Shown: in pieces, positions 38,290-50,719 of the stretch | Layout of the letters: each line of letters begins with the position of its first letter | Numbering within the stretch: the first letter of the stretch is position 1 | Assembly (NCBI RefSeq): GCF_020886775.1 | Contig: NZ_AP024525.1 | Span: 1,612,001-1,676,000 of the forward strand | DNA length: 64,000 nt | Source: Sinomonas cyclohexanicum | GTDB taxonomy: Bacteria > Actinomycetota > Actinomycetes > Actinomycetales > Micrococcaceae | Reading direction: 5' to 3' | Notes under the pieces: model-generated | What the model was told of the DNA's origin: nothing | Databases searched by the model: none | The model's input: the letters and a program-made list of their open reading frames with translations, nothing else | Program-made: the position numbers and the translations under genes

Positions 38290-38753
38290 GCGCGGTGGAG
38301 TGGCTCAAGGCCAACAAGGTCAAGATCGGCGTGGTCGCCGTGACGGTCCTGCTGGTCTTCTACCTCATCGTCACGTTCGACCGGGCCCGGATCCTGCTGA
38401 CCGATCCTCAGCCGGTCGCGAAGGCCATCGGCGCGGCGTACCTCGTGCTGCCGATCGTGGGCGCGTGGGCGCTCCTGCGAGAGCTCTCCTTCGGGGCGCG
38501 CCTCGAGCGGATGGGCAAGGAACTCGCGGCCGAGGGCGGCCTCCCGGAGGACAACCTGCCGCGCACCGCGGGTGGCCGGATTGTGCGCGCGGCCGCTGAC
38601 GCCGAGTTCGGGCGGTATCGCGGTGAGGCCGAGGCTGCGCCGGCTGACTGGCGGTCGTGGTACCGGCTCGGCCTCGCCTATGACGCGTCCGGCGACCGGA
38701 AGCAGGCCCGCGCCGCGATGCGCCGAGCCGCCACGCTCCACCGCGGACGCTAG
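38286..38753 (+). CDS. membrane protein with one TPR-like unit
   Basis: The 155-aa protein has two membrane helices (VKIGVVAVTVLLVFYLIVTF and AIGAAYLVLPIVGAWALL), then a soluble helical tail in which WRSWYRLGLAYDASGDRKQA looks like a single tetratricopeptide repeat. It is coupled to dapB by a GTGA overlap and is often found there in Micrococcaceae. Function unknown. Its stop shares CTAG with the converging gene on the other strand. Confidence 0.75.
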   Translation: MSAVEWLKANKVKIGVVAVTVLLVFYLIVTFDRARILLTDPQPVAKAIGAAYLVLPIVGAWALLRELSFGARLERMGKELAAEGGLPEDNLPRTAGGRIVRAAADAEFGRYRGEAEAAPADWRSWYRLGLAYDASGDRKQARAAMRRAATLHRGR

Positions 38754-39982
38754 CGGCGCCGTGTCCGGGCCGCGCGAGAGCTGAGGAGCCCGGCACGAGA
38801 GGCCCCGTGGGCGAGCCACTCAAGCGGCCCGCGCCAGCCGTTCGCCCGGACGAACAGTCCGATCGCGAGCGCCGCGGCAAGGTGGACGGCGAGGAGTGCC
38901 TCGCGTGTGAGGTGTGCCGCGTCCGCGAGCGGCAGCGAGAGGGCCCACACGTGGGCCGAATAGAGGGTCAGGGTCATCGCCCCGGCGCCCGCGAGCGGCG
39001 CGAGCAGCCCGGTGCGCACCAGCGGGCCGATGCGCGCGAGCAGGAGGAACGCGCCGATCGCGGCCGCGGACGTCCCGCACGTGTGCAGGAGGTCCAGCGT
39101 GGTCCCCGAGTGGGGCGCAGCCGTCGTGAGCCACCACCAGGTCCCCGTCTGGTCCACACCGCTCAGGTTCGCCTCGAGCATCGCCCGCAGCGGCCAGATG
39201 CGTGCCTGCTCGGTGCCGAGCAGCACGTTCATCCCGCCGAGCGGTGAGAGGAATGCCCACGCGCAGGCCTTGGCGATGACTGCGGCCGCGAGACCGCCCA
39301 CAACCAGCCATGCCTGGTTTGCGGCACGGCCCAGGTCCGCCCGACCGATCCACAGGCCCACGAGGATGTAGCCGAACCATTGGAGGGCCGGGTAGTAGCC
39401 GGTCACCGTGAGGTCCGCGAGGAGACGTGCCGGGCTCGCGAGATCGCCCCATGCGGGATTGTGGCCGAGGCGCAGGGGCGGAACTGCGCTGAGCAGCGCA
39501 GGCCGGACCAGGTACGCCACGATCGGCGCCCCGAGGAGCCACGCCGCCGCGAGCAGGCCCAGCGCCTGCCGGTGCAGCCGCACGACCGGCAGGGCGCACC
39601 AGAAGAGCAGGGCGTACTGGACAAGGATCACAGCAACGTTGACCTCGGCAAGGCCAAGGGTGAGGCCGACGGCGGCGATCACCGCCGCGCGAAGGGCGAG
39701 GCCAGCGCGGTTGGCCGCCGCCGGGACGCTGCCGAGCGTCAGGGACACGCCGGCGAGGACGGCGAAGAGCGCGGCGGCCCGGCCCGAGAACGCCAGGCCG
39801 ATCCACGTGGGGAGCCAGGCGGACGTCGCAGGGTCCTGCTCGTACGTGGGCAGGACATGGGTGGCCATCATGGCCAGGAGGGCGGCGCCGCGGGCCATGT
39901 CGATCCCCTCAAGGCGGCTGACGCGGGCGGGGCGCGGCCGGGTGTCCCGCCTCGCGCGGGGTGATTGCGATGGTCCGCCCAT
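38750..39982 (-). CDS. heparan-alpha-glucosaminide N-acetyltransferase-like / DUF418-type membrane protein
   Basis: The 410-aa product has about ten membrane helices and begins, after a basic lead, with SRLEGIDMARGAALLAMMATH. This is the R-x-x-x-x-D-x-x-RG pattern of the HGSNAT/DUF1624 and DUF418 acyltransferase families, which move acyl groups across membranes. No substrate can be named. ATG 39982 is preferred; an in-frame ATG at 40072 would run through the divergent SOS-type promoter. It converges with the TPR-like gene, overlapping by 4 bp. Confidence 0.7.
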   Translation of the reverse strand: MGGPSQSPRARRDTRPRPARVSRLEGIDMARGAALLAMMATHVLPTYEQDPATSAWLPTWIGLAFSGRAAALFAVLAGVSLTLGSVPAAANRAGLALRAAVIAAVGLTLGLAEVNVAVILVQYALLFWCALPVVRLHRQALGLLAAAWLLGAPIVAYLVRPALLSAVPPLRLGHNPAWGDLASPARLLADLTVTGYYPALQWFGYILVGLWIGRADLGRAANQAWLVVGGLAAAVIAKACAWAFLSPLGGMNVLLGTEQARIWPLRAMLEANLSGVDQTGTWWWLTTAAPHSGTTLDLLHTCGTSAAAIGAFLLLARIGPLVRTGLLAPLAGAGAMTLTLYSAHVWALSLPLADAAHLTREALLAVHLAAALAIGLFVRANGWRGPLEWLAHGASRAGLLSSRAARTRRR

Positions 39983-40033
39983 GGCGCCGATCGTCTCACG
40001 ATGCCCGGCATCGCAGAGATTCGGATTCGATGA

Positions 40034-40063
40034 TTGCCATCCGAAGATATGTTCGATTAGAGT
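40034..40063 (+). promoter_or_regulatory. promoter containing a LexA-type SOS box
   Basis: TTGCCA (40034-40039) and TAGAGT (40058-40063) are 18 bp apart. In the spacer, 40041-40056 reads CCGAAGATATGTTCGA, matching 10 of 12 fixed positions of the actinobacterial box TCGAAC-N4-GTTCGA. Its 14-bp core differs by one base from the box before recA in this window. LexA bound here would block the promoter. Confidence 0.65.
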
Positions 40064-40070
40064 GCTTCCC

Positions 40071-40412
40071 ATGAGCAGGGACGAGACGCCCGTTCAGGGA
40101 ACCTCCACCGCCCCGTTCCTGTCCCCCGGGGCGGTGGGCTTCCTCTCCCGGCAGCTGGTGGAGAGGACGCTGGGGCGGGACCCCTCGGTGCACGCCTGGC
40201 GCGCCGCGGGCCCGCTCCTGCCCGGTGACCCGCCGCCGGGGGAGCTTGCGCGCCGCCTGGCGGAGACTGATGTGGCATTCCTCACGGAACGCGAACTCGT
40301 GGCGTACGTGGAGGCCTGCGGACACCTGGGGTTGTGGGCAGCGGGGCGAGCCGGGGCGGCCCGCGCGGAGCTCGAGGGCCGCACCCGGATCGCGGCCCGG
40401 GGACGCCCCTGA
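40071..40412 (+). CDS. small SOS-box-controlled protein, weakly like the N-terminal part of DUF222/13E12 proteins
   Basis: The 113-aa protein starts 7 nt after a TAGAGT -10, so the mRNA is probably leaderless. It has a polar lead, FLSPGAVGFLSRQLVERTLG, a Pro-rich loop, and a helical end: ELARRLAETDVAFLTERELV then HLGLWAAGRAGAARAELEGR. That end resembles the first helices of DUF222 proteins, the actinobacterial family that usually carries an HNH nuclease and includes the M. tuberculosis 13E12 repeats, some of which have LexA boxes. No HNH domain follows; 20 bp after the stop the nitrilase-like gene begins. A DNA-damage role is inferred from the promoter only. Confidence 0.55.
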   Translation: MSRDETPVQGTSTAPFLSPGAVGFLSRQLVERTLGRDPSVHAWRAAGPLLPGDPPPGELARRLAETDVAFLTERELVAYVEACGHLGLWAAGRAGAARAELEGRTRIAARGRP

Positions 40413-40432
40413 GCGTGCCCTACGATGGCGGT

Positions 40433-41188
40433 ATGTCCGCCGAACTCACCGTCGCAGCCGTGCAGTCCGTGCCGCTCCCGGGGGGCCTCCATGCGAACAT
40501 CGACGAGCACGTCAGGCTCCTCGAAGATGCCGACGGGCACGGCGCCCGGCTCGCCGTGTTCCCCGAACTGTCGCTCACCGGCTACGACCTCTCTCTGTTC
40601 GCGGACGAGTCGGCGTGGATCACGAGCCCGTCGGCCCAGCTCGCGGAGATCCAGGCCGCGTGCGAGGACATGGGGATCGCAGCGGCCGTGGGCGCCGCCG
40701 TCCGCGAGCCGGACGGCACGCCCCGCCTCGCCTCGCTCCTGCTCCGCCCAGGCACTGCGCCGCTCATCGCCCCAAAGGTGCACCTGCACGGCGCGGAGCG
40801 CGAACTCTTCGAGCCTGGAGACCACCCGACCCTGGTCGAGGTCGACGGGTGGAAGGTCGCGCTTGCCGTGTGCTTCGACGTCTCACAGCCGCGCCACGCC
40901 GCCGAGGCGGCAGCCTCCGGCGCGGACCTCTACGCGGCGTCGTCGGTCTACGTCGCGGGGGAGGAGCGCCGCCTTGACCTCCACTTCGGGGCGCGGGCCA
41001 TGGACAGCCGGTTCTTCGCACTCCTCGCGAACGCCGGCGGGACGAGCGCGCTCGGCGAGTCCTGCGGGGAGAGCGGGATCTGGGGCCCCGACGGCCACCG
41101 CATGGCCGCTGCGCGGGGCACGGGCACGCAAGTCGTCCCGGCCGTCCTCTTCCGATCTGCGCTGATGCGGTACCGGCCTCGCGCCTGA
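40433..41188 (+). CDS. carbon-nitrogen hydrolase (nitrilase superfamily)
   Basis: The 251-aa enzyme shows the nitrilase triad: Glu in AVFPELSLTGYDLS, Lys in IAPKVHLHGAERELF and Cys in VALAVCFDVSQPRHA. Members hydrolyse amides or nitriles, such as omega-amidase or carbamoylputrescine amidase; the substrate here is unknown. TACGAT (40421-40426) ends 6 nt before ATG 40433, so it has its own leaderless promoter rather than depending on the SOS gene. Confidence 0.85.
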   Translation: MSAELTVAAVQSVPLPGGLHANIDEHVRLLEDADGHGARLAVFPELSLTGYDLSLFADESAWITSPSAQLAEIQAACEDMGIAAAVGAAVREPDGTPRLASLLLRPGTAPLIAPKVHLHGAERELFEPGDHPTLVEVDGWKVALAVCFDVSQPRHAAEAAASGADLYAASSVYVAGEERRLDLHFGARAMDSRFFALLANAGGTSALGESCGESGIWGPDGHRMAAARGTGTQVVPAVLFRSALMRYRPRA

Positions 41189-49472: not shown

Positions 49473-49501
49473 TTGATTCGAAGATGTGTTCGGGATAGCG
49501 G
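49473..49501 (+). promoter_or_regulatory. recA: LexA-type SOS box and upstream recA promoter
   Basis: TCGAAGATGTGTTCGG (49478-49493) matches 10 of 12 fixed positions of the actinobacterial LexA box and overlaps a TTGATT-17-TAGCGG promoter-like pair. It lies about 170 nt before recA and would be the LexA-repressed promoter. Confidence 0.7.
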
Positions 49502-49663: not shown

Positions 49664-50719
49664 ATGGCAGCATCAACGCCGGACCGCCAGAAGGCACTCG
49701 AGGCGGCGCTCGCGCAGATCGACAAGCAGTTCGGCAAGGGCTCGATTATGCGGCTCGGGGACGACACCCGCGCCCCGATCGAGGTCATCCCCACGGGCTC
49801 CATCGCGCTGGACGTAGCCCTCGGCATCGGCGGGCTCCCGCGGGGCCGTGTGGTCGAGATCTACGGCCCGGAATCGTCCGGTAAGACGACCGTGGCCCTC
49901 CATGCGGTGGCCAATGCCCAGCGCAACGGCGGCATCGCCGCGTTCATCGACGCCGAGCATGCCCTCGACCCCGAGTACGCAGCCAAGCTCGGCGTCGACA
50001 CGGATGCGCTGCTCGTGTCCCAGCCGGATACCGGCGAGCAGGCGCTCGAGATCATGGACATGCTCGTGGGCTCGGGATCGCTCGACATCATCGTCATCGA
50101 CTCCGTGGCCGCGCTCGTGCCGCGCGCCGAGATCGAGGGCGAGATGGGAGACAGCCACGTCGGCCTCCAGGCCCGCCTCATGAGCCAGGCGCTGCGGAAG
50201 GTCACCGGCCGGCTCAACCAGACGAAGACCACGGCGATCTTCATCAACCAGCTGCGCGAGAAGATCGGCGTGTTCTTCGGTTCCCCGGAGACCACGACGG
50301 GTGGCAAGGCGCTCAAGTTCTACGCCTCGGTCCGCATCGATGTCCGCCGGATCCAGACCCTCAAGGAGGGTGCCGACTCGGTCGGAAACCGCACCAAGGC
50401 GAAGATCGTCAAGAACAAGATGGCCCCGCCCTTCAAGCAGGCCGAGTTCGACATCATCTACGGTCAGGGGATCTCCCGCGAGGGCGGCATCATCGACATG
50501 GGCGTCGAGCACGGCATCATCAAGAAGTCCGGCTCGTGGTTCACGTATGACGGCGACCAGCTCGGTCAGGGCATGGAGAACTCCCGCCGGTTCCTCCGCG
50601 ACAACCCCGAGCTCGCCGAGGAGCTCGAGCGGCTCATCAAGGAGAAGCTCGGCGTGGGTGTCAAGAAGGACGCCGAGGACGAGGAGCAGCCGCGCCTCAA
50701 GGCTGTCGACGGGGACTAG
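49664..50719 (+). CDS. recA: recombinase RecA
   Basis: The 351-aa protein performs strand exchange and activates LexA self-cleavage. It shows Walker [27 protein letters not shown], Walker [14 protein letters not shown] and loop L2 [20 protein letters not shown]. No intein is present. GGAGG precedes ATG 49664, and two damage-type promoters lie upstream. recX follows directly after the stop. Confidence 0.98.

Follow-up and report, generated by a model that had tools for sequence, protein, structure and literature searches.

SulA, YneA, SidA, DivS and ChiZ are types of small SOS checkpoint proteins, and such proteins are commonly specific to individual lineages. Another set of proteins to be considered here comprises the DUF222-HNH proteins (PF02720 + PF01844; 13E12 of mycobacteria). 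In Mycobacterium tuberculosis, some of the 13E12 HNH genes have been assigned to the LexA regulon (PMC4181829), and a mitomycin C response that depends on RecA is reported for five putative HNH endonucleases (PMC8151990). In the same species, lexA itself is leaderless, an experimental precedent (PMC2897130). Streptomyces, according to a Streptomyces venezuelae LexA paper (PMC9380542), has no clear homologues of the known small SOS checkpoint proteins. Judged by titles and by the beginnings of abstracts, no stand-alone DUF222-like SOS gene was found among the literature matches listed, and its absence from the literature is not claimed.

The locus examined here lies in a window (the whole stretch of DNA that was analysed, 64 kb) of a Sinomonas genome of 4.41 Mb in one contig. 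Its features are collected in Table 1. The small gene that it contains resembles those of the SulA, YneA, SidA, DivS and ChiZ types in that its product is small, lineage-restricted and placed under an SOS promoter; unlike them, it gave no family or fold match in general searches. When compared with DUF222-HNH proteins, the small protein shows a short helix, an LTxxEL turn and a long helix that align with theirs, and some Sinomonas members of that family also have LexA-type boxes. However, the small protein has only 113 residues, whereas DUF222-HNH open frames mostly span 450-850 aa, it has neither a Pfam DUF222 match nor an HNH domain, and it is encoded mostly by one copy at one conserved locus, in contrast to the many DUF222-HNH genes. 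With the genes of actinobacterial LexA regulons, it shares a palindromic box over the core promoter, but its product belongs to no family of the searched libraries. The box common in the Arthrobacter group differs by one mismatch from the refined M. tuberculosis LexA motif ending TCGAAMRYWTGTTCGA (PMC4181829).

Table 1. Positions of the features of the small-gene locus, numbered within the 64-kb window.
Feature	Positions	Strand	Evidence
Promoter TTGCCA-18-TAGAGT	40034..40063	+	Sequence and promoter scan; equivalent conserved in relatives
LexA-type SOS box CCGAAGATATGTTCGA, which occupies the spacer of the promoter	40041..40056	+	Sequence; conserved in relatives
Small SOS-type gene, 113 aa, ATG at the predicted transcript start	40071..40412	+	ORF, homologues, selection in Arthrobacter-group orthologues
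Conserved helical core (about residues 56-105), resembling a segment at the DUF222-HNH N-terminal edge	40236..40385	+	Alignment, profile-profile comparison, models
GC-rich hairpin within the ORF, towards its 5' end, with arms 40105-40115 / 40127-40137	40105..40137	+	Covariation in Sinomonas

The -35 element (TTGCCA, 40034-40039) and the -10 element (TAGAGT, 40058-40063) are separated by 18 nt, and the ATG at 40071 follows the -10 element by 7 nt; the stop codon occupies 40410-40412. The promoter enclosing an SOS box, the short gap to the ATG and the length of the product had all been proposed beforehand in a sequence-only reading of this DNA, and the same coordinates and spacings were found again. 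Moreover, this promoter was the sole sigma-70-like site detected between 39800 and 40600 (shuffled sequences: mean 0.0, sd 0.2). As had also been claimed, the 14-bp core of the box, CGAAGATATGTTCG, differs by a single base from the box preceding recA, which was located at 49479-49492, its first base being 185 bp ahead of the start of the recA ORF (49664-50719). From the spacing between the -10 element and the ATG, the mRNA of the small gene is probably leaderless. The layout of box and promoter is what would be expected of a simple LexA-repressed promoter, and from this architecture we infer that LexA would bind the box and that DNA damage probably induces the gene.

A protein search of 58 related genomes gave matches in 13 of them. 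In all 11 loci regarded as genuine homologues, among them that of the window, a LexA-type box was present right before the start codon, and no box was detected, by the pattern used, at the two weakest of the 13 loci (L019, L020). A larger set of named loci was then considered, consisting of the best 80 of 97 loci found. In this set, the 16-bp box TCGAATATATGTTCGA was identical in 72/80 loci and the arrangement TCGAA......TTCGA was kept in 78, the other two deviating at one end. An in-frame ATG followed the 14-bp box core at 14-15 nt in 76 of the 80 and at 20 nt in two; no ATG was in frame in the remaining two (L195, L221). Across the 78 loci that were profiled, a -35-like TTGT.T and, 17 nt further, a -10-like TA..AT were nearly invariant, and the bases farther upstream carried little information. 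As these two elements are nearly invariant around the box, the latter fills the promoter spacer. A chance occurrence of box and promoter was set aside on the basis of the 11 homologues and the 72 identical boxes.

The box sits between two divergent genes, the second of which encodes an HGSNAT_cat-type acyltransferase. The longest ORF of this neighbour (38750-40072, minus strand) overlaps the small-gene promoter, and the acyltransferase gene therefore probably begins more internally, at about 39982. It could be argued that the box serves the acyltransferase and not the small gene, the more so as the neighbour matches HGSNAT_cat and is divergently placed beside the small gene in 74 of the 80 named loci (best 80 of 97). 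However, the position of the box is fixed with respect to the -35 element, the -10 element and the ATG of the small gene, whereas the acyltransferase match ends at distances between 77 and more than 2000 nt from this ATG, the longest values being possibly inflated by partial matches. We regard this assignment of the box as highly improbable.

The distribution of the small gene was examined at several taxonomic levels. Among 395 Micrococcaceae genomes, 86 gave a strong match (E <= 5.1e-23) and 9 more a weak match only. In the Arthrobacter group, the gene was matched in 149/150 genomes, including all 141 of good quality; as exceptions, the copy of G804 was a fragment and that of G830 was split into two pieces. 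Together with the 72/80 identical boxes, this prevalence confirmed that gene and box are conserved together in related genomes, a check that had been suggested with the initial reading. Of 396 genomes of the order, 21 were matched. Eleven of these belong to the family and carry the small gene; in the 10 from outside the family, the matches fell in open frames measuring 183 to 856 aa. Only two of 396 genomes of the phylum were matched, both Micrococcaceae. Within the genomes sampled, the small gene belongs to the Micrococcaceae, where it was found mainly in Arthrobacter sensu lato and Sinomonas and, in addition, in one genome of a further genus (G031). It is single-copy in most genomes.

The neighbourhood of the gene is largely shared. 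In the named loci (best 80 of 97), dapA was found inside the 3-kb flanks in 80/80 and a nitrilase gene downstream in 38/80; considered with the divergent acyltransferase, this indicates that a single ancestral locus accounts for most of the inheritance of the small gene. The upstream neighbour in G031 is a different gene. When a plasmid collection was queried with one Arthrobacter-group relative, a single match was obtained, on a 1.35-Mb Arthrobacter replicon; the same collection queried with one DUF222 protein gave no match. No homologue of the window protein or of one Arthrobacter-group relative was found in phages.

Furthermore, the gene is under purifying selection. In 75 sequences of 82 codons from outside Sinomonas (the Arthrobacter group and one Micrococcaceae assembly), pN was 0.139 and pS 0.638 (pN/pS 0.22), and pN was lower than pS in 600/600 sampled pairs. 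The mean column entropy at codon positions 1, 2 and 3 was 0.45, 0.27 and 1.27, respectively, in the same sequences. These data bear on the idea that the ORF is a functionless remnant, in decay, of what was once a DUF222-HNH gene. That its similarity covers one end of a longer protein would fit such an origin, as would the Sinomonas genomes, in 6/15 of which the gene is missing or truncated, but purifying selection, near-complete prevalence and a fixed promoter argue strongly against decay in the Arthrobacter group, and we give this origin very little credence.

The window protein gave no family match in Pfam, NCBIfam, PADLOC or PHROGs. A TVHS-like match, obtained for 2/11 family members with a best E of 0.22, was taken as chance. 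Among the relatives that were read, the product measured 75-239 aa, with an N-terminus of varying length, in which short repeats (e.g. RRIQE) were observed in some Arthrobacter-group species (L038, L041, L070). The conserved part can be written W...ELARRL.E.D...LT..EL...V.A...L..WA. In the AlphaFold2 model, helices were placed at residues 19-34, 38-44, 56-65 and 73-110; only the last two, which form the core, were of high confidence (pLDDT about 90 or more). The protein is probably soluble and helical, with a variable N-terminus followed by a conserved short helix and a conserved helix of about 38 residues. A structure search with the model returned nothing at E <= 0.001, and the only match among PDB sequences (E 0.43) was judged not credible.

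The sequence-only reading had noted a weak resemblance of the C-terminal helices to the start of DUF222 proteins. The Pfam DUF222 model (PF02720) did not match the window protein at E up to 10, nor any of the 11 aligned family members. No HNH domain was matched in the small protein and the ORF ends soon past the helical core, so the nuclease part is indeed absent, as had been stated. By Pfam's definition, the small protein is not a DUF222 member. The resemblance was nevertheless recovered when profiles were used. With the small gene and the truncated copy in G005 set aside, profiles of the small protein matched 22 places, 10 at the Micrococcaceae level and 12 at the order level, and 15/22 were DUF222 proteins above the Pfam cut-off. 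These 15 comprise seven of the Micrococcaceae-level matches, where L068 fell narrowly below the cut-off (24.1 bits vs 24.4) and L066 and L067 were not DUF222, and eight of the order-level ones, where L124 had a sub-threshold HNH match only and L126, L127 and L128 had neither domain. In all, 5/22 were neither DUF222 nor HNH by Pfam.

In profile-profile comparison with 32 DUF222 proteins, a probability of 94.7% was obtained (P 6.2e-8, 58 columns). Because 7/32 of these proteins had been chosen through the small protein's own profile, the comparison was repeated with the other 25. The probability then fell to 22.8% (P 9e-4), the N-terminal position being unchanged, and the score of 31.1 compared with at most 16.2 in 30 column shuffles. 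The segment common to the small protein and the DUF222 proteins is located at and just before the start of the Pfam model. In a modelled DUF222-HNH protein, the aligned helix pair occupies residues 170-178 and 187-217 (pLDDT 91-98 by blocks of ten), and the Pfam DUF222 match begins at residue 205. The alignment and the position of the helix pair at the edge of the Pfam domain thus suggest that the small protein is a free-standing counterpart of the DUF222 N-terminal-edge segment. From these comparisons, the case for homology between the small-protein core and this helical segment is good but not overwhelming.

The DUF222-HNH model (L058 protein, m060a009319a5) was itself used in a structure search, which gave nothing at E <= 0.001. 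Its non-significant matches included ParB/Spo0J (E 0.14, the best) and Noc (E 0.92), and the Gme HNH nicking endonuclease was listed at E 0.70 with a probability of 0.96.

DUF222 proteins were found in 150/150 Arthrobacter-group genomes and in the 12/12 Sinomonas genomes examined, and DUF222-HNH proteins are multicopy in both. Since Sinomonas genomes without the small gene still carry DUF222 proteins, co-occurrence does not discriminate; the presence of DUF222 in all 150 genomes allows the idea of a nuclease partner and does not specifically support it. A Pfam search within the window detected no DUF222 gene. In seven Arthrobacter-group genomes (G265, G396, G249, G840, G404, G829, G796), the small gene has a DUF222 gene some 20-30 kb away, which may represent a conserved second locus.

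The DUF222 genes were also inspected for LexA-type boxes. In the genome of the window, one (L052, G000:C1:2235372-2236367) carries the box TCGAAGATATCTTCTA, with an ATG 14 nt past the box core, the same geometry being seen in L058 and L061 of another genus, and a second DUF222-HNH gene (L056, G000:C1:1373696-1374478) has a LexA-type box near its start. Further DUF222-HNH genes with such boxes were L080, L083 and L094-L097, all from Sinomonas except L094, in which the box precedes the open frame's first start codon by 234 nt. At least 10 of the 12 LexA consensus positions were reached by 12/61 DUF222 genes, mostly top Pfam scorers and not a random sample (two loci cut by the locus end were omitted), compared with 3/61 gene-interior controls. 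In the Arthrobacter group, only 1/29 DUF222 genes reached this level. Co-regulation is thus partial and mainly seen in Sinomonas, and in this sample the proposed partner is mostly not SOS-controlled. That the small protein acts on a DUF222-HNH nuclease is a proposal that we consider possible but rather unlikely.

About as likely is a checkpoint role, in which the small protein would block division or replication directly, as SulA does but with another fold, its likeness to DUF222-HNH proteins reflecting shared ancestry with no functional tie. The 28/29 Arthrobacter-group DUF222 genes tested that lack a good box are in line with this doubtful alternative, and so are the mostly single copy, the near-universal presence in the Arthrobacter-group sample, the strict SOS-type promoter and the general frequency of lineage-specific proteins of this kind. 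Against it, general family and structure searches gave no match to a known checkpoint protein, and the core resembles a nuclease-associated module instead.

In Sinomonas, the hairpin of Table 1 raises the question of a function at the RNA level. It was analysed on 9 of the 10 located copies, the near-identical tenth being left out. Of the cells in the 15 pairs, 90.3% were paired (0/500 shuffles as high), two-sided changes were seen in 8/15 pairs (2/500) and further pair types numbered 15 (32/500). The covariation score of 0.411 exceeded all 500 shuffles (0.176, sd 0.036). Slid structures paired at most 51.5%, a control that leans in the hairpin's favour because the structure was drawn from the aligned sequences. 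A covariance model found one strong copy per genome in 10/15 Sinomonas genomes, nine of which had built it, and its next-best match anywhere had an E of 0.0035. A dispersed palindromic repeat was rejected on this ground and because the stem pattern (which excluded the gene's own hairpin) occurred at four places of the own genome that looked unlike by eye.

The ORF and the hairpin do not always go together. The ORF is intact in 9/15 Sinomonas genomes, six with the hairpin and three without (G008, G010, G013). In G005, the ORF is truncated and the hairpin present; in G003, G006 and G009, box and hairpin are kept where the protein core is absent; and in G004 and G011, neither box nor gene was found at the locus. 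The hairpin may have an RNA function, or it may simply belong to the Sinomonas coding sequence and have outlived a recent loss of the ORF. Under the first of these readings, the SOS-induced hairpin transcript would be the product, or would control translation or stability of the leaderless mRNA. The covariation, the strong copy in each of 10 genomes and the three genomes retaining box and hairpin speak for it, as does the fact that in five related genomes only 4 to 33 of 2000 synonymous recodings were equally stable. Yet the hairpin is missing from three genomes with an intact ORF, the losses of the ORF may be recent, no comparable hairpin was evident in 12 folded non-Sinomonas loci (11 of the Arthrobacter group and one Micrococcaceae assembly), and an Rfam search over 39900-40500 gave only RF01723, below the gathering score (E 0.38). 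A function at the RNA level seems improbable to us, and we find it similarly hard to favour a dual-purpose Sinomonas locus, with a leaderless mRNA encoding the DUF222-N-like protein and a functional structured RNA, either of which some lineages would have lost.

With the geometry of promoter, box and ATG, the conservation, the coding selection, the similarity to DUF222-HNH proteins and the lack of a catalytic part, all drawn from sequence comparison, we are confident that the locus contains a genuine SOS-type gene whose product is a small DUF222-N-like protein. As a whole, our preferred explanation, that of a LexA-repressed, leaderless SOS gene whose DUF222-N module docks to a partner, is more tentative and falls somewhat short of an even chance. 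In an undamaged cell, LexA would sit on the box between the -35 and -10 elements and block RNA polymerase. After damage, cleavage of LexA stimulated by RecA would free the promoter, and transcription starting at or next to the ATG would yield a leaderless mRNA. The product would be the small helical protein, a free-standing equivalent of the helical DUF222-HNH segment described above. As it lacks the remainder of DUF222 as well as the HNH part, this protein would most likely act by docking onto another protein, for which the genome's own DUF222-HNH proteins would be the first choice, their assembly or activity being modulated in trans. The small protein may be a regulator or an effector, as the sequence-only reading had suggested. 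That reading holds in its observations and, to the extent that sequences can show, in its interpretation.

Arthrobacter and related bacteria are widespread in soil, and the small gene seems to belong to the core SOS-type genes of this group; its product matched no Pfam, NCBIfam, PHROGs or PADLOC family. The gene seems to represent a new SOS-type family based on a known module. The DUF222-HNH proteins form a large family of putative nucleases that is still little understood, and a stand-alone, well conserved version of their N-terminal segment may offer a handle on what this segment binds and, thereby, on the role of the family after DNA damage.
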